Positions 9,170 to 48,209 of a stretch of DNA of 64,000 nucleotides are shown here, in pieces; within the stretch, counting starts at the first letter, position 1; every line of letters starts with the position of its first letter. The notes beneath the pieces were generated by a model, which was not told the origin of the DNA, did not search any database, and saw nothing but the letters and a program-made list of their open reading frames with translations. Position numbers and translations under genes: made by a program. Where the stretch lies: assembly GCA_037833965.1 (NCBI GenBank), contig AP031353.1:28088501-28152500 (forward strand). Reading direction: 5' to 3'. This DNA is from Marchantia polymorpha subsp. ruderalis. Lineage: Eukaryota > Streptophyta > Marchantiopsida > Marchantiales > Marchantiaceae.

Positions 9170-10430
9170 ACTTGACTTAGTTAGGATCTTGATAGATAGA
9201 AATTGGCACGCTTGTTCTAACGAGCCCAAGAACGGATAGGGCACACCAGGTAATGAGTGTCGAAAGTGGTTGGTATGGATAGACGAAGGCGCAGAAGGGC
9301 CTTCGACCAAAGAAACTTCGGATTTCAGAGAAGTAACTTCGACCTTAACGCCTTTGGCCTTGGAGCATGGATCTTGCGGAAGCTATATTTTCGCGCTAGA
9401 GTGTCAACTTGAGCTGAAATTTCATGAGGTTGTTGGTTTTAGCTGAACGCAAAAATTTCAAAAAAGTTTGCAAAATTTCAGCATCAACGGAGTTTGTTTG
9501 AAGAAGTTATTAATTTTGAGCTTTGAGTTTGAGTTTGTGTGAACCTTTGAATTTTGAAGAAGAGGCTGCGAGGACCTCAGACTTGGAGTTGATAGAGAAG
9601 CAGGAGGCTCAGTGCAGTGAGTTGAGGTCTCAATGGTCACCAGCTGAGGAGCAGTTATGTGAGATGGAGAAGAGATTGTCGGGGGCAGAAGAGAAGAATC
9701 GACAGTTAGCAGAGCAGACGAATGACGCCTTGACCGAGAGGGTGAACCGATGGCTGCGAAGGTTTGTATTATGGCAGGTCGAAACGCATAAATCGTTGCT
9801 ATTAAGAGATCTTGAGCGTCGTGCGAATGCAATGATAGCGAGTAGTGTTAGTGGGCAGCGCCGGTTAGCCAAGAAGTTGGACGCGTTTCTTACAAGTTCG
9901 CGCGACGCGATGTTGAACTTAGAGTTGGAGCTTGCAGTTGTTTTGCAAAGATTAGGTTTAGATTGGAAGTTGAACAGGAAGGCAACCGCCGACTTCGCGA
10001 ATGTAGGACCTGTTCGAAGCTCGCATCAGAGCGAGTGATAGCTCGGAGTTAGTTAGGAGTAAAGGTGTCCAATGCATTGGCCTTGGGGGACTTTTTTTGG
10101 ATTTAGTTTTCTCAGTTTTGAAGTCTGCATTCTCTGCGAGTCTGTGTATTGAGTGTATTGTCACCGCGCGAGAGGTACTTTGGTTTGTTGAAGATACCGC
10201 ATCCAAAGTAGTAGCCCAATTTGAATGTTCTGTGTAGCAATTGGCTAGATCAGGATTTAAAGAAGTTCGTAATTGGTAGCTTCGTGCTGTCCCTTAGTGT
10301 ACTCTTCGGCAATTTTCCCCCCTGAATACTAAGACTAGGTTGCGATCGACCTATGTGATGCTCCATTTGAGAATTTCATGAGTGATGTGTGTATTACGCT
10401 GCATTGCGTGTCCTTTTAATTGAACACATG
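9170..10430 (+). other. GC-richer island with a coiled-coil ORF, probable inserted element
   Basis: A distinct block of near-50% GC set in AT-rich DNA. It contains one open frame, about 9520-10038, of some 170 codons. No ATG is present near its start, so any native start or upstream exon is missing. The predicted protein is rich in Glu, Gln, Leu and Arg with heptad-like spacing (for example AEEKNRQLAEQTNDALTERV), so the N-terminal 60 residues look like a coiled coil. A conserved-looking helical part follows (WLRRFVLWQVETHKSLLLR). I recognise no named family. Similar coiled-coil frames often come from repetitive elements, so I suspect a transposon or retroelement product. Flanking sequence on both sides shares the same composition. 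Confidence 0.45.
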
Positions 10431-18629: not shown

Positions 18630-19260
18630 ATGACGCTTGCGGCTGCTAACTTCTGCGCAGTTGACCTCTGACCATTTGAATCAATAGTCGGACAAGGTTT
18701 GAAAGTGCTTGTTCAAACAGTTTTGGTCATCGATGTTGCAAGCAATAAGCGGTTCATGGTCGATGACTTGTTGTGTCAACCAGTTACCGCCATACGCAAT
18801 ATAGAGACTCACGCAATGAAGGTGCGCGCTATAATGGCAAAGCATCTTCAAGAACACATTGATACTGACGTATCCATGGCAAGCACGCTTGATCTTTGGA
18901 CTGACAGTATCAAGAAGGTAGTTTACGTATCTGTCACGGCGCGTTACATCGACGAAGAGTTTGCTCTGCTTGCTCGAACATTGCATGTTAAGGTTGTTCG
19001 CGATGAGAGCCACATCGCCGTTATGGTTTTGGACGAATTCAAGGAAGCTCTAGACATCTTTGGTATCAAGGATTTGGTGTTCGATAAAATCATTGTTGTG
19101 GCGGATTGTGTATCGAACATCCTTGCCGAAGATGGCATTTCAAGCGAGTTTGACTTGTTAGGATGCATTGATCATAAAATTATGAAATGTTTGACCTACG
19201 TACTCAACAAGACTACTAAACAGGTCAATGGTAAGAAGAGTAAGCCTTTTTACATAAATT
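18630..19260 (+). pseudogene. hAT-superfamily transposase, N-terminal half
   Basis: The frame 18699-19376 (first codon TTG, not ATG) continues upstream through disrupted sequence that reads like A-x-F-C-A-V-D-L-x-P-F, the usual block before the hAT catalytic core. It then shows GLKVLVQT, TLDLWTDS with the first catalytic Asp, SVTARYIDEEF, and a degenerate second Asp block VVADCVSNI where active copies have TDNxSN. A C-x2-H pair follows (GCIDHKIM). After about 19250 the frame enters AT-rich, intron-like sequence and the C-terminal dimerisation domain is not found. A mutated, truncated copy. Confidence 0.78.
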
Positions 19261-20094
19261 TTACATTTTACATTTTACAATTTTTACATAAATACTATTT
19301 ATGTAATGGTTGCTTGAAATTTCACAATGTGTTTCATTTAATTTTAATTAACATTCATTTTTATCAACATCTCTAGAATTGATTGAATAATACGTAAACT
19401 TCAAAATAATCATCATAGTAAACGTTCTAATAAAAAAATAAGGCCTAAACTTCATATAACTACTAAAAATAAAATAAAAGATGACTTAACATTAAAAAGT
19501 GATACAGAAAAAGTTTTTAAGGAACTTTGATCATGATATTGACTGAGCATATGGATTGATAACACCATTTTGAATGATCTTCAAATAAGATTGAGATTCC
19601 AATTATGTTCAATCATCTGCTTATGTCAAAACACGTTGGATTGATCATCTAATTTCACGTTTTTTAGTTATTTATGCAAGTAAAGTAACATGATAATGTA
19701 GTGTTCTTTTACCATATAAAATCCTTAAACTTCCTGTGATAGTTTAATTTATTTTGATCATTACAAGATGATATATACAATTATTTTTTAAAATTAGAAA
19801 CTCACATTTTATTATAATTAAATAATATTCTGTTGTATCCACGAATGTAGCTTTAAAAATTGTACGAACAAGACTCATAAACTCCTGGACCCCCAGTCTT
19901 GTTCATGGTCAAAAAGTCCAACGAAAGTCTATGGTATCTGTAATCGAAGCGGTCCATGATCGAAAGAGATTTTAACCTTTAATCCGTGGACAAGCACCGT
20001 ATTCCTGCTATACCAGCACTTGAAGAGTGATGAGAAGCTAGTTTTTAGCCCTTCTTCATGCTCCGATTGAAACTTGATCCTGCAATGTGAAACC
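19260..20094. other. AT-rich sequence, no gene supported
   Basis: AT-rich sequence following the hAT fragment, becoming less AT-rich after 19850. It contains only chance frames. It may hold the decayed 3' part of the hAT element, but no dimerisation-domain motif is readable. Confidence 0.4.
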
Positions 20095-20395
20095 CCATCA
20101 CGCATCTTCAACTTCATCTCGCATCACGGTCATGTCTAGATCTCTTACAAGTCTCAATAATAATCTTTGTTTCACGAATGTAGCTATAATAATTGGTACG
20201 TTCTTTACTTAGACGTGCTTGTTTCACAAGCTTGTGTGTGAACCCCCATCACGCCTCACGCATCTTCAACTTCATCCCGCATCACGGTCATGTCTAGATC
20301 TCTTACAAGGCTCAATAATATTCCGTGTTTCACGAATATAGCTTTAAGAACTGGTACCTTCTTTACTCAGACGTGCTTGTTTCACAAGCTCGTAT
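20094..20395. repeat. two-copy direct repeat, offset 158 bp
   Basis: A unit of about 138 bp containing CGCATCTTCAACTTCATC, CATGTCTAGATCTCTTACAA and AGACGTGCTTGTTTCACAAG occurs at about 20099-20236 and again at 20257-20393. The copies differ by scattered substitutions, so the duplication is not very recent. It lies immediately upstream of the LRR fragment. Confidence 0.85.
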
Positions 20396-20544
20396 CAGGT
20401 TGACTTCTGCAGTAACCTCGTCAGCTCTAAGAATTTCGATGGTATTGTAAGAGCTGACGAAGAATCGCCGTAATCTACAAACACCTAGTACCATTTGCTC
20501 GGAATTTCGTTGGGCTACGAAGCGACGAAGATCTTTGATTTCAG

Positions 20545-21157
20545 ATGCTCCGGAACCGTACTTTAAGAGTGCGTGATGACATGCTGTGGAGGGTACTCGA
20601 TATTGCTCTTCGATGTATGCTGTTTCCGATGGAGCTATTGGTGAGAGGAGTACAGAATGTGCATCGTAGGCGCTGCCCACTTCTTGTCTATCTCTTGCTC
20701 TTCATTACAATTTTGAAAGGACTGGAAATAGTTGCGGCTCAGTTATCGAACACGCCCAGTGCAGGAACAGATTTTGAGGCGCTTGTGAATATCACACACT
20801 CATTCGAAAGCAATTCTCTTTCTACGAATGGGACCTGGTCGAGCTTTTGCAGTAACTGGATTGGAGTGACGTCCAACAACGAAAGCCGGGTGGTCTACTG
20901 GATCTGAGTTCGAAGAAGCTGGCTTGTATCATCCTCTGGCTGTCGGAAATTTTGCTAGGCTAGGGACACTTGATATTCATGATAACCAGCTCTTACGATC
21001 GATACCAGACGTCCTCTTCAAGCTTTCCGTTCTCAAATTCCTAGATCTCGGTCAGAACCTGCTTCACGGACCTATTCCAGACTCAGTGTGCTCATTGTCA
21101 TCAACGAGTCTGCGAAAACTATCTCTGGCAAACAACATGCTAAGCCCGCTCGTTTGA
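20545..21157 (+). pseudogene. LRR receptor-like protein, N-terminal fragment
   Basis: Plant leucine-rich-repeat receptor-kinase type extracellular N-terminus. Frame one (20545-20907) has a hydrophobic signal-peptide-like segment (PLLVYLLLFITILKGL), then an LRRNT-like domain with FEALVNITHSF and a W..FC.NWIGVT block. It stops where family members continue into the first repeats. A second frame carries LDLSSKKL, and a third (20924-21157) carries two LRR units: LGTLDIHDNQLLRSIPD and LKFLDLGQNLLHGPIPD, then LRKLSLANN. Two frame changes near 20890 and 20935 and a stop after the third repeat break it. No transmembrane or kinase domain follows, so this is a gene fragment. Confidence 0.78.
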
Positions 21158-21399
21158 ATCTTTGCACAAACCTTTGTGGTCTGTAGATGGGTCGAAAAAA
21201 CTTCACTGAATCTAAACCCAATTAGCTCAATCTTTCAACTCTTGACCTTCTCTCAACAGATAAACGACACTTCGACGAGATCATAGTCACAAACTTTATT
21301 CTTCTAAAAGATATGAGTGACAACACTGACTTGACCATCACTCGGCTCCTAAAGAGCAGATTTAATATATGTCAAAAGCTCTAGCCGATAGATGACTCT

Positions 21400-24225
21400 T
21401 TATCTCAAGTAGTGGTATTCTTCTTGGTATCTTTGTGACTTTTGAGCCCATTGTGAGGCGCCTATAATGAAGAGTCTGCATATTCTCACGTACTCTGCCA
21501 CAGCATTCTGATACTGAGGTTCAACCTTCAAGTTGCCACTTTTGTCTCGAACTCGTTGATCTTTTTTTTTAACATTTCGTTTGCGCGATTCATACCTTCG
21601 ATTTCTGACCATCCGAATTTTTCCATGATGATGAAGATCACATTGAAACGATCTCCTCGCTCTTGAACCTCCTAAGGCACTTATAAAGCTTTTGTAACAC
21701 TGTGCCCCAGAAAGATGAAGGTCTAGTTCTCAATATTCAATTGCAGTATTTTTCGTTTCCCACCTTTCGAGGCTATACTGAGCTAGGTATCCGTGACCAA
21801 TCCTTTCCTCAGTTCTAGCTGAAATATCGACTAAAGTAACGGTGCTGTTACGGACTACTAGAAAACTCGACAGACATTGGTACCTAGGGGTACACATCAG
21901 TAATGACAGGAGCTACTCCCCTAAACACAACCTTGTTTATAGGACTCTTCTGATATTTTTATTTCTAAGGCACTGTCAGCGGAAGATCTCCTCTTACCTT
22001 TGCAAATGAGTACATATCGTTCTCCCATGCTATGGCAAGGCAGCAAGCGCCCACGAGGGCTTGCATGTTTGTATCGACGAACACATCCTTCGGAATTTGG
22101 GGCCACTGTCGAGAATCGTTGAAGAGATCCGTCAACCCCTGCACAAGGTTGAAATCGTAAGACTGTTGTTGAGCACCTACCGTGGACCTTGAGATAATAA
22201 TAAATGCACAATGTGGTCGATTTCTTTGAATGCATTTCAGCAGTTTCCAGCAACGTGTTGACAATTGTGTACACCTAATTCTGCTAAACCGAAGTCTAAA
22301 CTAGAGTCAGCAAGCGCCCACGAGGGCTTGCATGTTTGTATCGACGAACACATCCTTCGGAATTTGGGGCCACTGTCGAGAATCGTTGAAGAGATCCGTC
22401 AACCCCTGCACAAGGTTGAAATCGTAAGACTGTTGTTGAGCACCTACCGTGGACCTTGAGATAATAATAAATGCACAATGTGGTCGATTTCTTTGAATGC
22501 ATTTCAGCAGTTTCCAGCAACGTGTTGACAATTGTGTACACCTAATTCTGCTAAACCGAAGTCTAAACTAGAGTCAGCAAGCGCCCACGAGGGCTTGCAT
22601 GTTTGTATCGACGAACACATCCTTCGGAATTTGGGGCCACTGTCGAGAATCGTTGAAGAGATCCGTCAACCCCTGCACAAGGTTGAAATCGTAAGACTGT
22701 TGTTGAGCACCTACCGTGGACCTTGAGATAATAATAAATGCACAATGTGGTCGATTTCTTTGAATGCATTTCAGCAGTTTCCAGCAACGTGTTGACAATT
22801 GTGTACACCTAATTCTGCTAAACCGAAGTCTAAACTAGAGTCAAGAACCAATGTCTCGTCTGAAAGAGATCAAGCCTTCAACATGACAGAAGTTAAGACG
22901 AACAAGTTTTTTCGCGTCATGACTGAAAAATCCCGATTCAGCTAATCGATGCTCATAACGTGAGCACGTTCTTGCAAGCAGAAGACAAGGAGTCTAAGGT
23001 GTCATGGTTGCGATTCTGCAAGCAATTGTGATGAGATGAAAAGAAAGCTTACTATCAGGGGCTGCACGCCCACGGATCGCGTTCGAAAGTCGGTGAATTC
23101 AGCCAATGACGTATGATACTCTCCGGATAATCTGCTCTTCGTCTCAGTAGCAATTGTCAATGTATAATTCTGTATATGTTGGGCCATTCTGACATTGCAG
23201 TCATATGGCAGGCGTTCACAGTACTATATAAATAAATCTCTGAGAGCTGATGCTAAAGGCTGCAATTCTAAACTCATCAGTCCTGCAACAACCATTGAAA
23301 CAATATCAGAGGTCGAAGTGCTGAAATGAAGAACATATTAACCTCCACTTCTACTAATTGACAGCTTCAGAATTGATAGTTATGTCAGAGTTTACGATGT
23401 TATTGAGTTTACGGTTTTGAGATCCATAGCTATCAGAATGCGGACCTGGATAACTCGTGTAACTTTAAATAACACAAAGACTGCGTGGAGTTGTACGCGA
23501 GACTAGCCCATGAACTAAGATCAATGAAACACCTGCGCGAGCTCTGGTGCGGGCGTAGGCGAGGGAATCCTCGAATGCACTAAAAAATCGTCACGTTGGT
23601 CGGTGGGGATACAATCGAACACCATCTCCAAGTTTCGGAGGAGACGAGGGTCCTCAGAGCAGAACCACAAGATAACCTTCTGCGTTTCGAGGATGAGACC
23701 GACGGTTTTATTCGTGTCCCTACAGATATCAAGCTTGTCGCAGAAATCATCAAGACAGGTAATCCAAGCCGTAAACTTGGCACACCAAAGAAAGTCCTTC
23801 CGATCAACGTCGTGGTACACTTCACCTGCGAAATACGGGGCTCTTCCTGACGTGAATTTCTTCCATCCCTCCGGGCCCATCTGAGTGTGGACATCGTGTG
23901 TGACAAGCCAATCGTGGGCCTTTTCACTGAACTCGGCTATCAGAGGATACAGTCCACGGTCCTCATAAGGAAGAGTGATATCGGGTACTTGGATTTCCTC
24001 CTCCTGATGAACTGGCAGCTGAGGTGATGAAGCTGCTGATTGAATTTTGTGGCTCCTTTCCTGTGACGCTGCTCTGCCATGAAAGGCGACCACTCGATCC
24101 TTGGATGCTACATTATTCTGCATCGGCACTATCACTGCGACATTCCTGCCCTCGCTTTTCCTGGACAAGAACCTCGAATTCACACCCATAAGCTTGGAGA
24201 AACTCCTTTGAGCTTTTGCCGCCAT
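21400..24225 (-). pseudogene. MTPSL: microbial-type terpene synthase-like (MTPSL), probably disrupted
   Basis: Class I terpene synthase of the microbial type found in non-seed plants; such enzymes cyclise prenyl diphosphates using Mg2+. Exon 1 runs from ATG 24225 to 23533. It has a Ser/Arg-rich plastid-transit-like N-terminus, then PYFAGEVYHDVDRKDFLWC and the metal-binding DDFCD motif. Exon 2 is about 23188-23053 (MAQHIQNYTLTIATETKSRL, EYHTSLAEFTDFR). Exon 3 is 22162-21998 and ends NDMYSFAK, the first part of the NSE metal motif. Exon 4 starts near 21662 with ERGDRFN, and the end near 21400 carries GASQWAQKSQRY, the W...RY motif. Problems: the reading frame changes near 21540 and cannot be bridged by a normal intron; FHDL at the exon 1 end needs a one-base shift; exon 2 and exon 4 joins are ambiguous in phase. 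Exon 3 also lies in a triplicated 267-bp unit. Family is clear; loss of function is likely. Confidence 0.82.
22041..22841. repeat. three tandem copies of a 267-bp unit inside the terpene synthase gene
   Basis: Copies begin at 22041, 22308 and 22575, each 267 bp and apparently identical. Read on the minus strand each carries terpene synthase exon 3 sequence (LTDLFNDSRQWPQIPKDVFV). Only the copy nearest 21998 keeps the exon's 3' part with the NSE motif and donor site. The other two stop shortly after ALVGAC with TGA. Near identity implies a recent expansion or an assembly artefact. Confidence 0.95.
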
Positions 24226-24931
24226 CGCGTGTTTGAAGGGAAGTGACCGAGTGAAGAGGACTTTCCCCAATCCACAGACGAACAGATCGCAAGTGATACT
24301 AAATTTGACAAGCAGCGTATACAAATACCATGATCCCTAGAGCCTCCATAAATACTGCTCACCACTCCGATAATGCTAGGCTGATATTGCAGACATTGCA
24401 GATTTTATCATGAGTCAATACCACTCAGTGCAAAATTCCTAAACTACTTCGCGTTATCATGTGAAGAACATCCTTACCGACCTCAGTCTTCGATCACATT
24501 AGAGTCGGAGGAACCGAGATCATTCTTGACTTGCGCAACGATGTGATGATAGTACATGCAACGGAAGGTTTGACTTGACAAACTTGCAACAATCAAAAGA
24601 AGATGAACATCGTCGCTGAAAAACTCATGCTGTATCATTCCACTGACGGTACTTCAGATGACAATTATTAAAATATTTGGTAATCTGATGTGAATCAATG
24701 TCATGTGTGGCTGTCAGTTTTACTCATGATTTTTGCGTCGCCTAGATGCTGTAACGGTACAAATTATTGATTGCTTAATTTAGTGCAGTGCTTAGTGCAA
24801 GTCTCCAACATCTCGCAACTTTTTTCCTCAACCCGACAAGTTGAAAAAGATAAGAACCAAATATTCCAGAACCTCTTGAATCATCTGAATTATGAGAAGA
24901 TACAGACATACTGAATGCAAGTTTCAAATCG

Positions 24932-25189
24932 TTGCTGAACCGATTGTCCGAAAACACACAGGTTATCAAGATTGCTGCAACCATTAATTTGTTTGAAGCA
25001 TTGCGCAGCCTTGCAACTGCGGTTATCGGCGTTGGCTTTATGTTTGAAATTTCTTGGCGTCTTACAATTTTGGCTTTGTTCGTTGTTCCGGCCATTTCTT
25101 TGGGTATACGCTCTTTCGGATGGTATCTTCGTGGGTTTTCACTCAACAGACAAGCTGATTTGGCTGATGCTACTTCAATCTTAGTTTGA
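24932..25189 (+). pseudogene. ABC transporter (TAP/ALS1-like, ABCB half-transporter) exon fragment
   Basis: About 85 codons match one internal part of a TAP-like ABCB half-transporter transmembrane domain. [19 protein letters not shown] is the conserved loop before a helix; then come [20 protein letters not shown] (membrane helix) and [16 protein letters not shown]. The first codon is TTG, with no upstream ABC sequence, and a stop follows DATSILV. No Walker A, signature or Walker B motif is nearby, so this is an isolated exon-sized scrap lying between the divergent terpene synthase and cis-prenyltransferase. Confidence 0.75.
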
Positions 25190-26561
25190 GTTCCTAGCGC
25201 GTGCATCAGCAGTCACCGAGCTCGTGAACTTGGTATTTCACGCTCCAGAACACTCGTCCGCAAGCCGTTTCCTGGTGCGGTAGTGAATGGTTGCGGGAGT
25301 ACGTTGCATGAGATAGACGGGACCGCATCGACTGACAGTTGTGCAGATCTGAGCCAGAAAACGACGAGGATCGAACTTCCCCCTGAACTGCGTCCTGAGG
25401 TGATGCCCAAGCATGTTGCGATTATCTTAGATGGCAACAATCGTTACTCGAAGGCGAGAGGCTTGCGTGGAGGTGAAGGCTTCGAAGTTTTGCTCAAGAA
25501 GAGTCTCAAAGAGGCTGTGAGAGTCAGCGTTGATTGGGGAATCGAGATACTCACACTCTTTTACTTCTCTTGCGACAACTGGAATCGAGGAATGGTCATT
25601 TCTAAAACCCATTTCTGGTTACTTTTCACTTTAAAGAGCGTAACATGTTCTGTCCTGACCCGTTTATAGTTCGTCAAGTTTAGATGTGCCCAGTATATAG
25701 TCAAGGGGTTGTAAGTTAGGTTCCAGTTAGATGACACTGCTTGACCAGCGGTAGATGTAGGCTTTATGGTTCTGAAGCGGAAGGTGTGATGGAGGTTGGA
25801 TACAGGTCGAAATTGACACAATCTTTGGGCTCTTTGAGTTGTATCTGATCAAGTATAGAGAAGCCATAATGAGGTCAGACAACCTGGCTTCTGTTTTTGC
25901 TATCTGTTTCAAAGTCTCTAAAAGTTCCATGCATATTCCTCCTTAATACTATAAACTTTTTCATAATGGTGCAGCTTCAAATCTATTTGTTGATATCTTT
26001 TGCGTATATTTCACAGCATTTGGCGATGTTTGTTACAGTCTGCAGTCCTCGCCGTGATACTTTTTAACGATCTTTGTAACGTAAGCTTCTACGCTGTTGA
26101 TCGTACAGGTATAACATTCAGTTTTCGATCATGGGCACTCTAGAGAGATTTCCTGAGACTTTGCAAAAACTGGTGGGTGAGGTGACGGAAGAGTCTCGCA
26201 ACAACAAGGGATGAAGGTTGTTGTGGCAGCCGGGTACGGTGGAAGACGGGACATTCTTCAAGCTACTCAGAGAATAGCTCAATTGGTGGCTAACAAAGAA
26301 CTCTCCATCGATGAGATAAACCTGGAAGTGTTCGAGTCACATCTCATGACAAATCACATGCATCCATCCAGTGTTGATCTTACGATGCGGACGAGCGGAG
26401 AGCATAGAATTAGCAACTTCCTTCTTTGGCAGATGGCGTGGACCGAGTTTGTATTTTTGAACGAAACCTGGCCTGAGTTTAGACGTGATTCGATGAAGAA
26501 TGCATTAATCAGTTACCAGTCTAGGGACCGAAGACTTGGTCTAAGAAAGACCAAGTTCTGA
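25190..26561 (+). pseudogene. cis-prenyltransferase (dehydrodolichyl diphosphate synthase family), one frameshift
   Basis: Enzyme of the UppS/DHDDS family, which condenses isopentenyl diphosphate in cis onto an allylic primer to give dolichol-type or short cisoid prenyl diphosphates. Exons are (25190)25403-25594, 25806-25873 and 26109-26561, with GT/AG borders and matching phases. Seen in order: HVAIILDGNNRYSKARGL with the catalytic Asp (the usual DGNRR is DGNNR), LTLFYFSCDNWNR, VEIDTIFGLFELYLIKY, FSIMGTLERFP, VVVAAGYGGRRDI, and DLTMRTSGEHRISNFLLWQ. All main family blocks are present, and the length from the ATG at 25403 is about 237 aa. One base appears to be missing near 26209, turning NNKG-M into a stop. 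The open frame extends upstream without ATG to 25190 and looks Ser/Arg-rich, so a transit peptide start may be lost. Divergent neighbour is a terpene synthase. Confidence 0.88.
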
Positions 26562-27480
26562 ATCAAGTCAATTGCAGTCAAGTCAAAAAGTGCGGCATAT
26601 CTCCACAGCGAAGTTCGAGCTAGATAAGAGAAAGCGTGAGACTAGTTGAGCGTAATATGGACAAATTGTCAACGGAAGTGTAAGACACGAAGCGTATGGT
26701 TGTTCTACTCTGCATCTCCCTTCTCATCGTGTAGGCAAATAGAGGAGGCGCACAGCAGCAGTTACACTTCTGACTGTGATTCTAGGGGAAGAACCAAGTG
26801 CACATCTGCTATAAGCCTCTACAACTAATCACACGCAAATCCTGTGTAGACACTCACGAGGACATGCATGTAAGCCTCTACAACTAATCACACGCTGATT
26901 ATGTCTAGAAACTCATAAGAACATGCATGTTTGTTGTTGACATGTACATTTCACGTGCATGCTGTTTCTAATGACATCAAACTGCGTTCAGCTTACCACT
27001 ACGAAGGGATTTGTCTGAATACTTTTTGTCCCTCCAACTGGTCGTAAGCACATCCTTCTTGTGTCTTTGTGGAGAAGCTATTGCGATTGTGCTGATGTAG
27101 GCCGATATATTGATAAATCAAGAAGCCCAATGCACACTCTGAGATAGTTGGGGCTTGTCATTGCCACATATCCCTAACTTTTATTAGAACTTAATATGCG
27201 TTCCTATAATAAGCGACATTCAATTTCAACACCTCTGACGATCCCAGGTTTATCAGCTTGAGCAGCCCATTCTTCCGTATTTGAACCATTGTTCGGATTT
27301 TGAGCGGCTCATGCACCCAGACTTCCTAATGTTGGGAGAATCCGGAAGATTTTGAGACCTACAGCGGAGACGACCAAATTACGAGAGTGAAAGCTTATTA
27401 TTAGAGCAAGACAAGTCAAGCCTAATGATAAGTCAGAAGTAACATATAGCTAAAAGATTCGTGGATCCAATCACGTTATG
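26562..27480. other. intergenic, no gene supported
   Basis: Downstream of the cis-prenyltransferase; it should include its 3' UTR. It contains a short tandem duplication (listed separately) and no convincing open frame. Confidence 0.45.
26812..26929. repeat. 59-bp tandem duplication
   Basis: TAAGCCTCTACAACTAATCA begins at 26812 and again at 26871. Both copies end in a ...ACATGCATG string. The middle part differs at several positions. Confidence 0.85.
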
Positions 27481-30400
27481 GTAATTTCAATGATAAAATT
27501 TGACTCCTATGTCCGGTTTATGACATAGTATCAGTATTACATTACTCAAATTTTATGATGCAATGCAACAATAACCCTTTAAATAGGATATTGAAAGCTG
27601 AATAAACACACGTGTAAACTTGAGTATGTAGTTAAGATTGTAAAATTTTTTGAACTTATACGTTAGATATTCCTAAAGTATATTTTTATTAAATTTAAAT
27701 TTTTTTATTTGATACAATTCTACGGTTATGAATTTGAATTCGTTGCTAGATTTTTAATTTGTCAGATTGTACGCAAGATGTATTGGAAGTATATCCCCCA
27801 GGACTGTATATATTGGAAATATATCCTAACGTTCTTTTTTTTCAAGTTAAGGACGTGACGATATCAACAACATGAACTAATGGAAGTTGTTGTGAGTTTA
27901 TTAGAGTAAGTTAGGTTAATGTTTGAATTAATCTAGAAAATACTTCAGAACACTGTCACTATATAAGGGACCCAGCGAAATCTTTTAGCTTGTGAAAATC
28001 CTATAACAAAATTCACGTTCTGCATTTTTAAATGCAGATATAAATGATTAATATTTTTTATTTGCGTTATAGATAACATTGATATAGATGTCAATTTATG
28101 TAATTTTTCAATATTTTTCATCAACACATATCTAAAATTTTACAACTCCAATAAAAAATCGCTAACGTTATGGATGCTTAAAACACATTTGGAACATTAA
28201 GCGTAGAATTGGAAATATTTGAAATTTTTCCAAATTTCATCTTGACAACAAAGCTTAAAACATATATCATATATTATTATAAAGCTATAAAAATCTTTTC
28301 TTTTCCTTGCCTGCATTGACTCGTTTTGACCAGCCCCTTGACCTTCTTTAAACACAACAACAGGGTTATGCCCCCACCACTGACACCTCACTATAAATTT
28401 TAAAAATATGTTATATAAAATCTTTATGGAAAAAATAACTATGAACATGACATTTAAATTTCATTTATCCGAAATAAATATATACTCCAAATATTTACTA
28501 ATTTTTAAAAAAACAAACGCAAATATATAAAAAAATTTCAATACAAGCATATTAAAAAATGTGCAGTCTAATACAAAGAAATCAGTGATGAAATATACAA
28601 ATTTTTTTTTATATATATAAGAGTTGGATCATAATAGAATCACATATTTGAATTTAAAAATGTGTTTCATGTATTAATTTGTGATATTGCAGAATAAAAA
28701 TATGACAAATGAAATAATATATTTTTATAATGAGCATTTTAAAAGTACTTTGATAAAAGTATTTAGAATTTAGAATTTACTCAGCAGAATAAGTAGAAGA
28801 GTTAGCACATCGCTACAAAAATTTAAAATCAAACATATTCAGATATTTTATAATTTAGATACAATATAATAATATTAAAAATTCAAGATTCAATGCAAAT
28901 TTTATTATTGATATATATTTTAATATATTAATTTTACTTTATATTTAATAATTTTAATTTTAAATCATTAATTTCATCAAGATTATGATAATTTAAATAA
29001 TATTTTTGATATTTTTATGAAACTATAATAAATATAAAAATTGTATAACAATAAATATTGATATTGAAATGCTAAACATATAATGCAAATACAAGATAAA
29101 AAATGGATTTTTTTTAAATAAGTTCAAAAAATATATATGCTTGTATTCATGATATTTTTTCATTTAAATATAATATAAAAAATTTAATTTTAAAGTAAAG
29201 TAATATAAGACATGTGAATTAAAACAATATGTAATTTATTAAATTTATATTTTTAATTCATATTTTTCATATTTAAATCTTTCTAAATACTCATAAAATT
29301 TGTCTTAACATTTTTAATGTTATATTTGATTTAAGTTACAATTCATGTGGTTTATATTGAATAATTTTATTATAAAAATTGATCATTATTTTCACTCATA
29401 GTGCTGTTTTTATTTTCATGAGAACTTGAGAATACTTATGATTTATAATGAGATATAATAATATCTTATAACTAAAAAAATCAAATTTAAAATGCAATTG
29501 TAGATTAAATCAATGCATCAATATCCAAGTGTAAACACAATGCATAATATATAGAATTTTTTCTTAAAATCCTAACTATACGAGTAATGTAACAAAGTTT
29601 TGTGATTATTAAATAATAAATGATAAAAAAAAATATAACACTTTAAAATTTTGAGCTAGAAAATCATTCACTTTACAAATTTTTAATGCATCTAGTTCAA
29701 ATTGAATATTTATACTCTCAACTACACAAAGCAATCCAAGTCATGTTAAAAATATTGAAATTCAAAAATTTTATACTTTTATCTGTTAAAAATTGTTTCT
29801 TATATAATAGCACTAATTAAATTGTTGCTAAAAATGCAACACAAAAATGTAAACATGTTTTAAATTGTTTTTTCAAGTCTATTGAATTAAATATGTCAAA
29901 TAAATAAATGGTGTATTTGTGTAATGTCAACAACTTCTTCAAGTCGGCGCATGTACCGACTAGTTGTGTGTGGAGTACTCCACCACCTGTAACATATCTT
30001 TGAAATAGTCATATCTTGATAGATGGATTCCACATCAACTTCTGCACCCACCGAGCAATTCAAATCAAAGTTCAACTAACATTGTTGAGTGAATAATGAT
30101 CAAATCAAAATAATCATTTCTGAATCAAAGCTAAACCAACATGGCTAAATGCAGAATGAAATCATTACAATAATTACTTTTGAATCATCACTCGATGTGC
30201 ATTGTACACAGAGAAACCTAGATAGACTTTCAAGAACGGAATTACATTTAAATATATATATGTGAAAAAAAATTTACATATATTTAATTTCACTCATTCA
30301 AACACTATTGTTATCCAAAGCCTGCAAACATTCAAAAACAATATAATTTTTTATTATTAATTAATTTAATAAATAATAATTTACATTAATATATGTAAAT

Positions 30401-40979: not shown

Positions 40980-43900
40980 GGAAGTATTGAGCCGGGACGA
41001 GGAAGCAAGGACCGTAAGGGAAGCGACAACAGTCCTCCACTTTCGAAAGATCCCGGAGTCCTAAGATCTCATTCTCCCACACGCTGCATGATAACTGCGC
41101 TGTTGCCTGCAGCAGCATCTCCAGCGGACGAACGGCAGAAGATCTCTAGGACTGCGTGGGATTGAATAAATCCCCCGGCAAGGACCGAGGCGCAACCACC
41201 GGTGGATAACGATTGCCGTCGCCACCGCCCCCCTTGGCTTCTCTCCGTCCGACCGGAACCGTTAGTTTGTCGCTGCCTGACTGCAGCGGGCGCCGGATTC
41301 AAACCCGCGCGCTAGTGGGATCCAGTCTCTCCTCCCCCCCCCCCAACCTTTCTTGCGTGACCGTTGTCGGGCTTGCATGGCCGACGAGAGGCCACCCTCC
41401 TGCCCGCGCATGACTGACCGGTCACCGGCTCCCCCCTTCGATCAAGAAACGTCCCCCCGGCGTATGACGGGGAATTCGGGGGGGGGGGGGGGGGGGGGGG
41501 TCTAAGGGGTGTTCAACTCAAACTGGTGGCCGTTTGGAGAGAGAGTCGAGTGAAGATGATCGAGTCGTGTGCAGTACCACTTCTGCTTCTTTCGTCTGGG
41601 CTGCTACGACGTGCATGATGGATTTCGATGGGGAAGCTTTTACACGTGTTTCGGTGGGCTTTGATGGAATGCCTTTCGGGGTGGACGGATGATTGTCTGC
41701 AGGAGGAGGTAGGGGAGGCGAGGACGTCTGCAAAATGGCTCTCGAATGCCTGCCAAAGTGCATGTGGGGGGTGAGAAGAAGAACAAGCGACGGTGTCATG
41801 AAAAGGGCGAGGATTCTAGTCGGGGACGGGCCACAATGTTCTCGGATGTGGATGTGGTGAAGAAGAGCTCGACAGTTGACCCGCGGTGGAATGCGCGGGG
41901 CTGGGGGTTGGTTCACCCTGGGTTGGGCGGGACCCGGACCTCCAAATGTGGCGGCGGGCCGATCGATCGACGAGAGGAACCGCCATCAGAGGAGCGAGAA
42001 AAGGTGGTCTACAGTGGAGCGAGCAGTGCGTGGACGAGAGTCGAGGCGAGGCCCAGATTTGGCAGCCAGTCAAGTCGTCTCACTGTTGGAGGAGGTGCGG
42101 GGAGTCGTATAAAACAGTTGTCCTCTGTCCAGCAGGGCAGGAGGAGGAGAACGATTGAGGCCGAGACAAGATCGGTTCATTAATGACGAGAACAAAGAAG
42201 GGAGCAAATCGACTCTTCTGTGCCGTTGTCCCTGCTTCCGCACTCACCCCCCAACTCTGACCACCGCTCTCCGGACAGCAGACGACAGCTGCACTCATCC
42301 GGAGCTGCAACGGAGACGACCGAGGGAGAGGATTAGAGGACAGAGAGTACGAGAAGAAGAGAAGTGGTGCACTTTCATAACAGCAAGGGAACGCAGCGAG
42401 CGAGTCCGCCCGCCCGTGATCGGGAGACTATCAAAACACCATATATGACACAATACGAGATTAGAGGGGACAGAGTAGAAAGCGCTGTGGGTGGAGGAGG
42501 CGGAGGAGGAGGAGTGATGGAGAGTAATGTAGGTGGGGTGAAGGCGTAGGTGACCGTGACCAGCTCGGCAGTGTCGGGTAGGTGATTGGAGTCCGCAGAA
42601 CAGTCCTGCATTGCAATCAGCAGCAGCAGGCTGAGGACGCAGAGAGCTTCTACTTCTTCTTCGTCTTCTTCTTCTCGGTAGAGAGAGCGGGGCAGCAGAC
42701 GAAGGCGAGCAGAAGTTTGGGGCGGGGGGAGAGGGGACAGGACGGGGGCAGGACGGAGACGGATGGATAGACAGGAAGCAAGATAGATTCCCGGCCCGGC
42801 CCGGTGCCTGGCATTCTATTTCCGAGAGGTGGTTTTTGGGAAGCCTGTGCGAGAGAGAGAGAGAGCAAAAGCCCGGGAAAAGGAAAAGCAGCGGACGAAA
42901 GTCAGAGCTGCTTCAAATCCCCACCCGAACTCAAACTCGAACAATTGTTCTGTCCCGAACTGACACGAAGCCAGCAGCCAGTCAGACCCCCAGAGAGAGA
43001 CAGAGAGAGAGAGGGAGAGAGAGACGAGACCCACGGCAGCGCAGCGCAGCTCGGTTTACAAATGTGGCCGGTGGGGGGACCAGAGACACGTTGAGAGGAG
43101 AGAGCGGCGCCCTCGCTCGTCTTCGCTCTCGTCCCCGTGCTTCGTGCTCGTGCTCGAGCGCGCCTGCCGGTCGCCCTCTCCCCTCGCGGATGCCGGTATC
43201 AGTCGCGCGACCCCATTGCGTAGCGCTGTGGCGCATTCGGTGTGTTCTCTCGATTGAATGAGTGAATGAATGCCACTCGAGTGGAAGAGAGTCTGTCTCG
43301 GTCGACGAGGGGAGGAGGAGGAGGAGGTTCTGTTGCGTAACCACAGGTGGTAGTTTGTAGTGGGACGAGTCGGGGCCTCGAGGTCAAGCAAACCGAAACG
43401 GGAGGGAGCGAGAGAGGGAAGGCAGGGCGAGGCAGGGCGAGAGCAGGCCCGACGAGCGAGCGAGATGGTTCTGTGACAGATTGAGAGACCGTCACAAGCG
43501 GAGAGCGTCGTGGTGCCACCGAGTCTTGTGCCCAGAGAGAGGGAGAGGGGGAGGGAGAGGGGGGAGGTGCACGAGCATTATCTGAGCACGAGCTCAGAAG
43601 GGCATTCTGGGGGCTGATTCGTCGGCTTTTCCGTTCGGTTGTGTTCGTTGGGAGGGAGGCGGGGAGCGATTCAAAAAGGTTTGAATAGCGGAGGCCCGGC
43701 CTGAGGGGAAACGGGGACTGCGGCATTTCGAGTTTTCATCGCCTTCTCGCCCTGGCTATGGTGGCGGGATTCCGTCTTCAAAGTGCAACAACTGCGTCGT
43801 CGCTGCTCTTGCTGCTCAAGCCCCCGGCATTGCGCTCGTCGAGGCCGTCCTGGCTATGGTGGCAGGATCCGCTGTTTAATTGCGCGTCCAGAGGAAGGGA

Positions 43901-43987
43901 TTAACATTTTGTCTCAGCTGCTGTCGCAGCACAGCCAGCAGCACTGATAACAACCACGAGACGAGTCGATTTGACATTCTGTCCGTC
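40980..43987 (+). promoter_or_regulatory. GC-rich, GA-repeat promoter and 5' leader of the TORTIFOLIA1-like gene
   Basis: About 3 kb of GC-rich sequence ends at the start codon of the HEAT-repeat gene. It is full of purine tracts: GAGAGAGAGAG at 42851-42866, a GA-rich stretch at about 42990-43025, and GGGAGAGGGGG near 43540-43562. It also has GGAGGAGG and CTTCTTC runs. GA repeats are known binding sites of plant BPC/GAGA-binding proteins. The many overlapping open frames on both strands are low-complexity and I do not call them genes. Transcription start and any upstream intron cannot be fixed. Confidence 0.5.
41478..41500. repeat. homopolymer run of 23 G
   Basis: An uninterrupted run of G in a GC-rich region upstream of the TORTIFOLIA1-like gene. 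A run of C lies nearby at about 41334-41344. The run could fold as a G-quadruplex, or its length could be a sequencing artefact. Confidence 0.9.
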
Positions 43988-46900
43988 ATGATGGGGAGGT
44001 CACGCGGGACGGCGAAAACCTCAGGGCCCCCGACTCAACTGCTGCTCATCGAGCTCAAGCATCGCATTCTCGGCGCCCTCCACAAGCTGGCCGATCGCGA
44101 TACTCAGCAAATAGCAGTCGATGACCTTGAGCGCATTGTTCTCAGCCTGTCCCCCGAAGGAATCTCCCTCTGCCTCAACTGCCTGTACGACACCGACGCT
44201 CAGCAGAAGAGCGTGGTTCGAAGGGAGTGCGTGAGGCTCTTCGGCACCCTCGCCACCGTCCATGGAGATTTGTTGATGCCGCATCTGACGAAGATCGTCA
44301 CTACAATCGTCCGCCGGCTCAAGGATCCCGACACCAACGTGAGGGATGCGTGTGTGGAGACTATGGGGTGCTTGTCTGCTCAGGTGCCCGGGGCAGGGGG
44401 CGAGGGAGGGCCGATGCCCGTTTTCGTCAAGCCTCTGTTCGATGCCATGGGCGAGCAGAATCGTAACCTGCAGATTGGAGCCGCCCTCTGCGTGGCCAGG
44501 GTCTTCGAGTGCCTCAAGACCCAGCAGCCTGCCATGCTCCAAAAACTCTGCCCCCGCATTTGCAAGTTCTTCAACGCCCCCAGCTTCCAAGCCAAAGCTG
44601 CGCTTCTGTCTGCGATCGGGAGTCTGTTCCAGGTTCCGAGCTAACCCTGCCACTTTCTCTTTAAATTTAACCAGCTTCCTGTATGCTCTTCGCCCCCGAG
44701 CTTCTCGGACACCACCTTGAAAGGATGAGCGAACCGAGCCTTCTTGGCAGTTGGTCGCAAGAATAATCGGCATTGACATCCTTGAGGGAATGCACCGGCC
44801 CAATCGATGAGGCTCGTAGGCGAATTCAACACTTCAGGGTTTTTGCTGGGTGTCGGCCGAATTGATTGAAGGTTCAAATAATGGACGCTTGTGGAATGTT
44901 GGTTGTGAGAGGATTTGTAGTTCGAAATAAAATTGTCGCCACATTTGGGTGAGAGGAATGATGATTGGCCAGGACAGGTCGTGTTCATTGCGGAGGGAGG
45001 ATCCGAATTTGACTCAGCCGACGCGTGTTTGATTTGCAGGCAGCAGGCACAGGCGCTGCGCAGTACTTGACGTCACTGGTTCCCCTGGCGCAAGAGGCTC
45101 TCGAAAACACAGACTGGGCCACCAGAAAGGCTGCAGCGGACACTTTGGCTCGCTTAGCCTCGACCGTGGGTCCTGCGCTGGTTGCTTTTAAGCCTGCTTG
45201 TACTCAAGCTCTTGAGAATTCGCGGTTTGACAAGGTAGCCAACGCGCTCGACTCACGACGCATGTTGATAATTTTGGATCGTTTGCTATGCTGTCTCTAG
45301 AGCTCCATCAGTCGACATCTTTTCTGTAGGTCCCATTCTGTGCGTACTGCCCGGACTCACACGGTCCCAACCGTGGATAATTCTTTTCCAAGTGATCGGC
45401 ACATCATTGCCCAAGCTTAAACTGGCCAAGGGCCAAACGCTACGCAGTGCCGCTTCCGTGTATTAGGGTCGGTGACTTGGGTAACAGGTTCAGCTCCTTT
45501 GATTGATGTGCGTCTATGGTTGGAAATTCTACGTGCAGGTCAAACCCGTTCGAGACAGCGTCGGAGAAGCACTTCAGCTATGGAAGAATCTACCCGCAGA
45601 ACCCGAAAACACCAGTCCAGGCGGAACAGTTGCCAACAGAGGTACTGTCCGAGGGTACTGGGCTTGATTTAGGAACATTTCTGAGGTGGATCGTTGACCT
45701 GAGGGTGAAGTGCTGGACAAATTTGTCGATCGTCCTACATCGTTAATCATTCCATTTTGTGGAAGCTTCAATTTGTACAATCTGTTTGCAAGGGTGGGGA
45801 TTTGCCGCTTTTCCTGATGGGTGGTGAACTGAGTGCATCTAATAAGTTGGACAATGGAGACTACAGGTGGATCCACCACCGACATACTAGGATATTGGAT
45901 GCTGGAGAAAGTCTTCTCGGTTGCGAATTTTGTCACCGAATGTACTGAGTTCTAGCTGTCTGGTTGCACGCAGACGGTGCGGCCAAATATTTCGATAGGA
46001 GGCAGAGTTTGTCGAACACGTCACCGACCAACGGATCGGGGAACTCCACTGGCGATTCAAATTCAGCCACTAAACCAGGCGGAGCTAAAAAAGGATCTGG
46101 TAAAACGGGACCAGAAAGTAGGAGTGGCAGCAACACAAAGAGGCGACCTCCTCCTCTTAGTGACATGAAACTAAACCCCGATTTCTTTAAGAAAATCGAG
46201 GGTAAAACTGATGATGACTGGGAAATTGAGGTGGCCCTTCCTGAACCCCGAGAGGCACCCGAGGACCCGGCCGAAGAAGATAATCTGCAGGCTCAAGATG
46301 TGAAAGTTGAGCACATAAAGACCCAGGATTATGCAGGCAATGGACTGCCTAATGCTGATGAGCAAGCAGCTGCGGCTAGACGAGCAGCTGTGGAGCAACA
46401 GTACCAAGAGAGTCTTGTTTGGAGGCGGGGGGAATTCACCGGTACGAATGAGAGGAGTTCCACAAAGCCTGGAATTGGATCTTATGATGGAAAGACTTTA
46501 AATAATAATTTGTCAGTAATCACAAATCCTATACCAGTCCTTGTGGAATCTCCTTGGATTGAGAAGGATAGGGACGTGGACAGAGATGTTGATAGTTGGG
46601 AAACTAGTGGTCCTGCCACGAGTCCTTCAAGTAGTGCTACCTACGAAGACGATGGTCCAGCCGTGAGTAGCATGGATGAATGGACGTCTGTGCAGAAACA
46701 GCTACAACGGCTGGAGTTTCAGCAACGGAACCATCTGAAAATGTTCCAGGTAATTGTCCGTGCTTTCCTTGCGGACACTTCTGAGTGCTCGGTGGAGAGG
46801 AAAATGAAAGTCGTATTCACGCTGATGAAAGGAGATTGTCTGACGGAACGTTTCTTCGTTTTGTTCAGGAGTTCATGGCTGATGTCCATCAAAGCATGCT

Positions 46901-48209
46901 CGAAATGGACTTGAGGGTTCGAGGATTAGAAAGAGTTATCAATTCCGCGCGCGATGTGCCTATGTCTGTGAGTAGAATAATGAACGGAAGCTCCTCGGGC
47001 TACGAAGCCCCTCCAGCTCGCTCTCTAAACAAGTTTCTGGCGAGTTCCCAGAGTTTGAGTGACAAGCTTAGAAAAGCAGCGAATTCGAGTCGGGCAGCAT
47101 TCGCTGATAGGGGGCCTGGCGGGGACCAAATGGCCTCTTCCGGTATGAGAAGCGGTAGATCTTCACCTTGGAAGGCTAACGATTCAGATGCGGATGGCTG
47201 GGATGATTACAGCCCTTCGAACAGGGTAGGACCATCTATCATGTCTCACGCAGCTCCCCCCATGGTCTCTCAAAGGATAATACAGAACTCACCCAACTCT
47301 CGAACTAAAAGGGGAGGTAGAGGAGCTCACGACAGCGATCCGGCACCCAGGCATGCGTGGGAGAGGTCTGGTGGATCGGGAGCTTATGGAGAAAATCACG
47401 TAGTCAGAAGTGTGTGGCAGGCCTCCAAAGACGAGGCCACTTTGGAAGCCATCAGAGGTGCTGGAGAAGATCCAAGAGGGCCTGGATCAGAACTAGAAAA
47501 ACCACTTGGTGCTTCTGCTAGAATGAACAACTCAGATGTAGGAGGAGCCAAAGGCAAGGAAACTTTTTGGATGCTATGGAGTCGTGCCATGGATTACATC
47601 CGAGTTGGAGACATGGACGCAGCTTATGTAGACGTGATGTCTTCGGGAGATGAGCTGCTGCTGATCCGATTGATGAGTCACACCGGACCTGTCTTAAACA
47701 AATTGGCCAGCGGCACGGCGTTGGAAATGCTCCAAATGTCCATTCAGCTGCTGCAACAGCAGAGTTTCTTGGATTCCGTCCTACCCTGGGTGCATCAGGT
47801 AAATTGCTGTGAGCTGTTCGCAGGTCTCCTGTGTTTTGTCTCAAGAGCTTTCTGATCAGATCCTGCGCTGCTTCTTGACGATTTGTATTGACGTTCAACA
47901 TGAACTGGTCAATGCGCAGTGGGTCTTCGGGCCAAATCTGAGGCATACTGATTGAAGTAAAATAGAAACAATCACTACATGCGTGTAATACGATTGAACT
48001 TTTATTAAACTGTTTTGTTTTTCTGTCAGGTTGCCGATCTGAATTCCACAAAGGGACCAGAGTTCTTAGGATTGACTATGGACGGTAAGAAAGAACTAAT
48101 TACGAGCCTTCAAGAATCAGCTGCGATGGAATTTCCTGAAGGTTGGATGGCGAGTTCAGTAGCAGATGTGGCGGCACAGTTGTGCAGCGCTTGGTCAATT
48201 GACCTATGA
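43988..48209 (+). CDS. TOR1: TORTIFOLIA1/SPIRAL2-type microtubule-associated protein (six exons)
   Basis: Plant-specific HEAT-repeat protein that binds cortical microtubules and controls their dynamics and severing, hence directional cell growth. Exons: 43988-44632, 45040-45234, 45539-45641, 45974-46749, 46869-47798 and 48030-48209. All borders are GT/AG and the phases join to 942 aa (Arabidopsis TOR1 is about 860). HEAT repeats fill residues ~15-310 (LFGTLATVHGDLLMPHL, VRDACVETMGCLSAQ, NWATRK-type TDWATRKAAADTL, VKPVRDSVGEALQLW). A Ser/Gly/Pro-rich linker follows, with PPLSDMKLNPDFFKK. A predicted coiled coil at ~550-600 (VQKQLQRLEFQQRNHLKMFQ) spans the exon 4/5 join. The conserved C-terminal domain begins near 806 (FWMLWSRAMDYIRVGDMDAA). 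The start is the first of two adjacent ATGs (43988, 43991). No break seen. Confidence 0.95.

Follow-up and report, generated by a model that had tools for sequence, protein, structure and literature searches.

Results

The stretch of Marchantia polymorpha subsp. ruderalis DNA analysed here, hereafter the window (64,000 nucleotides, C4:28088501-28152500, in a genome of 241 Mb and nine contigs that was searched throughout), contains a microbial-type terpene synthase and a cis-prenyltransferase that lie head to head, as a preliminary description of this DNA had proposed. The four synthase exons were mapped on the minus strand from 24225 down to 21400 and the three prenyltransferase exons on the plus strand within 25193-26561, with a fragment of an ATP-binding cassette (ABC) transporter between the two genes (Table 1). 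Both members are pseudogenes, and together they form a decayed duplicate of an intact divergent pair, MpMTPSL2 (minus strand) and MpCPT5 (plus strand), which is located 6.85 Mb away on C4 at C4:21260323-21265714 and whose members match PF19086 and PF01255, respectively.

Table 1. Coordinates of the features mapped in and around the gene pair of the window
Feature	Position in window	Strand	Identity, motifs and remarks
Synthase pseudogene, exon 1	23533-24225	-	94.5% to MTPSL2 exon 1; N-terminal extension, DDFCD motif
Synthase pseudogene, exon 2	23053-23282	-	94.3%
Synthase pseudogene, exon 3, sole full copy	21998-22165	-	carries the NDxxSxxK part of the NSE motif
Synthase pseudogene, exon 4	21400-21671	-	89.7%
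267-bp unit, three exact tandem copies	22041-22843	-	overlaps intron 2 (in part) and the first portion of exon 3
cis-Prenyltransferase pseudogene (NCBI MpCPT7), exon 1, codon 40 onward	25193-25594	+	90.5% to MpCPT5
cis-Prenyltransferase pseudogene, exon 2	25806-25873	+	85.3%; absent from NCBI MpCPT7 model
cis-Prenyltransferase pseudogene, exon 3	26109-26561	+	92.7%; 1-bp deletion causing a frameshift
ABCB-type transporter fragment, intron exactly gone	24931-25180	+	PF00664, E-value 3.3e-11; chromosome-3 matches
Segmental duplicate of C4:21259196-21266171	20278-27071	n/a	blastn
Leucine-rich-repeat gene fragment, in duplicated block	20539-21157	+	repeat match within 20870-21157; blastn

Both members had been described as damaged, and the comparison with the intact exons (89.7–94.5% identity for the synthase) bears this out lesion by lesion. 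The synthase remnant does not provide an open, spliceable coding sequence, with a 1-bp deletion and frameshift in exon 1, a stop codon in frame in exon 2 (corresponding to codon 251 of the 454-aa MTPSL2 model), a tripled segment of exon 3 and a second frameshifting 1-bp deletion in exon 4. Note that the use of the NCBI acceptor would shift the start of exon 3 by 27 bases, to about 22138. Pfam recognized PF19086 barely above the cut-off in exon 2 (26.9 bits, E-value 4.2e-4) and under the cut-off in exon 3 (21.7 bits, E-value 1.9e-4), and no Pfam family was matched by exon 1. The 267-bp array (3.0 copies, 100% identity between copies) is of very recent origin, or else an artefact of the assembly.

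The prenyltransferase remnant, in which PF01255 was detected at 25190-25669 (E-value 3.3e-11) and 26181-26561 (E-value 3.7e-34), likewise lacks an open, spliceable coding sequence, having lost its start and suffered a frameshift in exon 3. At NCBI it is listed as MpCPT7, a 230-aa protein that matches the window locus at 100%, in pieces, and whose model skirts the lesions in that it includes intron sequence and skips exon 2. The annotation of MpCPT7 should be corrected to that of a very probable pseudogene. The starts of the two genes had been estimated to lie about 1.2 kb apart, which holds for the remnants (synthase ATG at 24225, annotated MpCPT7 start at 25403) and not for the ancestral arrangement, the original prenyltransferase start being missing.

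In blastn, the ~6.8 kb duplicated block of the window and its counterpart at C4:21.259-21.266 Mb display 84–90% identity per aligned block, and the aligned region takes in both genes, their introns and their flanks, with the same gene order and orientation. When exons and introns are taken one by one, identity is lowest in prenyltransferase intron 2 (76%) and highest in synthase intron 1 (96%). The block is collinear with the intact locus apart from a gap of ~1 kb between the two genes, which corresponds to 880 bp upstream of the prenyltransferase start and its first 39 codons. These codons are present in the M. paleacea protein and in CPT6 (our label for a tandem prenyltransferase copy at C4:21291658-21293136, about 26 kb beyond MpCPT5, which matches NCBI AXG93_3205s1130 at 345/346 residues), and the loss therefore occurred in the window copy. 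A tract of 94–96% identity over synthase exon 1, intron 1 and exon 2 (window 23053-24225 against positions 1514-2678 of stretch L066), with flanks at 85–92%, looks like the trace of past gene conversion between the two loci. In addition, window 26871-27783 gave a 77% blastn match to the flank downstream of CPT6. The preliminary description had surmised that the pair could be the remains of a cluster with an intact copy elsewhere, and the C4:21.26 Mb locus, with the same order, is such a copy; the contrary outcome, in which no other locus would pair the two families and each fragment would have its closest relatives at unrelated places, does not apply, the near relatives of both members sharing this locus.

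At the intact locus, the start codons of MpMTPSL2 and MpCPT5 are 1,557 bp apart. MpMTPSL2 comprises four exons and encodes 454 aa in our model (445 with the NCBI acceptor), MpCPT5 comprises three exons and encodes 346 aa, and both are open with GT-AG introns throughout; the synthase model is identical to NCBI MpMTPSL2 save nine residues at one acceptor, and the prenyltransferase model is identical to NCBI MpCPT5. MpMTPSL2 belongs to the class I microbial-type synthases (PF19086, Terpene_syn_C_2, E-value 5.7e-27), and its spliced product holds DDFCD and NDMSSFSKE (NDxxSxxKE), which we take to be the Asp-rich and NSE metal-binding motifs. A variant of the NSE motif devoid of glutamate was discarded after splicing, exon 3 ending at the lysine and exon 4 supplying the glutamate. 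MpCPT5 is a cis-prenyltransferase (PF01255, E-value 7e-66), and the positions DGN, S..NW.R and RTSGE.R.SNF, presumably the conserved motifs of this family, are invariant in a four-sequence alignment. The solved structures nearest to MpCPT5 are the tomato nerylneryl, neryl and (2Z,6Z)-farnesyl diphosphate synthases. Both intact proteins carry N-terminal extensions, with 2 and 4 acidic residues in the first 70 positions, which resemble plastid transit peptides and from which we infer a putative plastid location. Predicted structures of CPT5 and MTPSL2 were set aside for their low mean predicted local distance difference test scores (36.3 and 39.6, from four-row alignments).

The ABC fragment occupies the site of the ~1 kb that is missing relative to the intact locus. 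Its 253 matched bases correspond to two stretches of chromosome 3, C3:3930573-3930709 (94%, 137 bp) and C3:3930928-3931043 (86%, 116 bp), and the 218 bp separating these stretches start with GT, end with AG and are precisely absent from the window. This exact intron loss means that the fragment came via an mRNA copy and is therefore derived from complementary DNA (cDNA). In the whole-genome search it had no match besides chromosome 3, and the C4:21.26 Mb locus was likewise without a match. At its junctions no poly(A) was seen. We read the fragment as a putative mRNA-derived filler at a repaired chromosomal break. It had been suggested to be either a third former member of the cluster or debris: as a cDNA-derived piece of chromosome 3 it is debris, and a former membership is contradicted by the lack of a match at the intact locus.

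At the codon level, CPT5 and CPT6 are under purifying selection, with a ratio of nonsynonymous to synonymous divergence (dN/dS) of 0.30 over the whole sequence (P 5.5e-6 against neutrality) and 0.20 in codons 101-346. MTPSL2 and the window synthase show no departure from neutrality (dN/dS 1.25, P 0.82). Synonymous divergence (dS) amounts to 0.15–0.16 for all three pairs of CPT5, CPT6 and the window prenyltransferase, and gives no age order; between MTPSL2 and the window synthase it is 0.058, a value that cannot be used as a clock because of the conversion-like tract.

Across the genome, seven prenyltransferase loci were found, three of them of the CPT5/CPT6/window type, and merged searches recovered at least 34 terpene synthase loci, a lower bound, no model specific to fungal-type synthases having been used. 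The distance from a prenyltransferase to the nearest synthase is 1.1 kb in the window, 1.8 kb for CPT5 and 29 kb for CPT6; only these three fall within 30 kb, and the remaining four lie at least 206 kb from any of the 34 synthase loci. Under uniform and independent placement, one or more of the 6 prenyltransferase loci outside the window would lie less than 2 kb from a synthase with a probability of ~0.006, and adjacency by chance is unlikely. A search of the genome for the plant-type synthase family revealed no new neighbour for any prenyltransferase. An older relic of the same synthase (72–76% identity in two longer blocks) lies at C4:19615910-19619071, and the whole-genome search gave no prenyltransferase match next to it; a relative of the window synthase with 43% identity, at C5:13805113-13807331, has no prenyltransferase locus near it.

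Beyond this genome, a protein search recovered members of the synthase clade from Marchantia alone (five proteins, four of which are the query rows, within the word-based reach of the search), and its M. paleacea relatives are on contigs of 1,845,149, 8,438,675 (two) and 418,291 bp. For the prenyltransferase, four of the best 120 of 6,180 matches reach at least 73% identity, all from Marchantia and one being MpCPT7; the rest of these 120 are at or below 46%.

Elsewhere in the window, pieces of a TORTIFOLIA1-like gene occupy 43880-47855 (PF24714, E-value 1.1e-81; PF24713, E-value 6e-32), and a 234-aa open frame at 18672-19376 has an unrelated best Pfam match (E-value 0.069) and is presumably akin to a transposase fragment. 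A leucine-rich-repeat frame resembling that of the duplicated block also occurs in stretch L069, at 9377-9817.

Discussion

Altogether, our results suggest, with a probability of about 0.8, that the window holds the dead duplicate of a two-gene terpene module whose intact version makes limonene via neryl diphosphate. In the available portions of the literature on this pathway, MpMTPSL2 and MpCPT are given as the synthase and the cis-prenyltransferase of limonene synthesis, with reference to Kumar et al. 2016, and as highly co-expressed with oil-body markers (PMC9680858), MTPSL2 is described as a limonene synthase characterised in yeast, and limonene is said to be likely formed via neryl diphosphate in Marchantia polymorpha (PMC13068942). 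The published synthase is the same gene as ours by name. The suggestion of a tomato-like cis substrate, made before any of these comparisons, agrees with what the excerpts of both papers convey (PMC9680858, PMC13068942). The same portions of this literature, which do not extend to the original 2016 study, contained no statement on a physical linkage or a decayed duplicate; the function of the intact pair is largely published. Against the text available, what appears to be new is the linkage of its genes, the duplication as a block, the reading of MpCPT7 as a pseudogene and the filler derived from mRNA.

As to the underlying mechanism, MpCPT5 would join dimethylallyl diphosphate and isopentenyl diphosphate in cis into neryl diphosphate, its presumed C10 product, and MpMTPSL2 would ionise the latter, the cis double bond permitting direct ring closure to limonene. 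Both genes, expressed with oil-body genes according to the papers, may be controlled through a shared upstream region, possibly a common promoter. The block carrying both genes would have been copied, in this direction, to C4:28.11 Mb, where ~1 kb with the prenyltransferase start may have been lost and a reverse-transcribed fragment of an ABC mRNA taken in at the break, both genes presumably decaying thereafter.

Several observations weigh against this reading and should be considered together. The MpCPT of the papers is very probably MpCPT5, an identity that we infer. The best NCBIfam models for MpCPT5 are undecaprenyl synthases, many of its plant matches (among the matches listed) are named dehydrodolichyl synthase 2-like, and its chain length is not fixed by sequence. 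Regarding decay, the comparison of CPT5 with the window prenyltransferase gave a dN/dS of 0.52, which is under neutrality (P 0.0096), a value expected in part when a constrained copy is compared with a free one. The amino-acid to silent changes, 34:15 on the window prenyltransferase branch against 30:25 on the intact ones, do not differ significantly (P 0.16), and the use of M. paleacea as an outgroup assigns 26 synthase differences to the window and 19 to MTPSL2 and leaves 24 ambiguous, a mild skew to the window; taken together, the selection counts fit a dead window copy in part. Lastly, in the M. paleacea assembly the closest homologues of the two genes lie apart, the synthase being on the 1,845,149-bp contig and the prenyltransferase on one of 2,543,969 bp. 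The search for further intact pairs, which the preliminary description had called for, was successful within the same genome and not in that M. paleacea assembly, and conservation of the pairing beyond M. polymorpha is unproven, the comparison covering one M. paleacea assembly.

These separate contigs would also be expected if the adjacency were a frozen accident, with chance neighbours duplicated together as passengers, in the absence of a shared promoter and whatever their chemistry, as would the 29 kb between CPT6 and its nearest synthase match and the relic at C4:19.617 Mb that stands without a prenyltransferase match in the whole-genome search. Such an accident is nevertheless unlikely, given the low probability of adjacency under simple assumptions (about 0.006) and the placing of both products in one pathway, co-expressed with oil-body markers, in the accessible text of the papers. 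Far less probable is that the window pair still works in a reduced form, MpCPT7 and a short synthase being expressed as real proteins. The NCBI entry with its full identity, in pieces, to the locus and the long open frames that persist in the window would speak for it; however, the MpCPT7 model passes the lesions only via intron sequence and without exon 2, neither the first 39 codons of the prenyltransferase nor the region upstream of them survive, and the synthase, with a dN/dS near 1, carries two frameshifts, one stop codon and a piece of exon present three times. We give hardly any credence to the idea that the ABC fragment was a third cluster member serving as a terpene transporter. It does sit between both genes, and MpABCG1 influences the accumulation of sesquiterpenes in oil bodies, as stated in the available part of PMC13068942. 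However, the fragment is of the ABCB type, unlike the ABCG type discussed there for oil bodies, its best solved relative is ABCB10, its match is limited to 253 bases, its sole other genomic match lies on chromosome 3 and has an intron that the window piece lacks, and the intact C4:21.26 Mb locus does not match it.

Returning to the dead duplicate of a limonene module, a broader proposal, for which the odds seem to us slightly better than even, is that liverworts, independently of nightshades, built a minimal cis-prenyl cluster by combining a microbial-type synthase gained through horizontal transfer with a divergent cis-prenyltransferase of plastid-like type, the two sharing one divergent regulatory region, that this cluster duplicates as a unit, and that the death of one duplicate came about when reverse-transcribed transporter mRNA was used to patch a break. 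The main interest is in the intact pair, the window itself being a fossil. Should the intact pair prove to be a real module, clusters of a prenyltransferase and a synthase using cis substrates would have evolved at least 2 times in plants, the second time with a microbial-type synthase; the convergent formation of clusters could then be tested in a model plant where knock-outs are easily made, and oil-body expression could be assayed with a compact intergenic region (~1.56 kb). As for the ABC piece with its exact splicing, it looks like mRNA-derived sequence caught at a plant chromosomal break.

Two known systems can be compared with this pair. A tandem MTPSL cluster on chromosome 6 of M. polymorpha, with five synthases thought to be fungus-derived (PMC12890914), resembles it in that microbial-type synthases are duplicated in the same genome; it differs in that the word ‘prenyltransferase’ is absent from the main text on that cluster (PMC12890914). 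The closer parallel is the tomato chromosome-8 cluster, which, in the available text on it, unites CPT1/NDPS1 and CPT2 with TPS19, TPS20, TPS21 and CYP71BN1, and whose region also holds pseudogenes and is subject to deletions in other Solanum species (PMC4364678, PMC7422722). In tomato a cis-prenyltransferase adjoins synthases that use its cis product, and monoterpenes are formed from neryl diphosphate in specialised secretory cells; the liverwort pair would be alike in these respects. No cytochrome P450 gene was recognised in the open reading frame lists (at least 80 or 100 aa) of 50 kb of the Marchantia genome, a survey made without a P450-model scan and from which split genes may escape. 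The tomato cluster synthases are of the plant type. Unlike these, the Marchantia synthase is of the microbial type (PF19086), and its head-to-head arrangement with a prenyltransferase involves just two genes. A microbial-type synthase in the liverwort pair suggests that the pairing arose separately from that of tomato.

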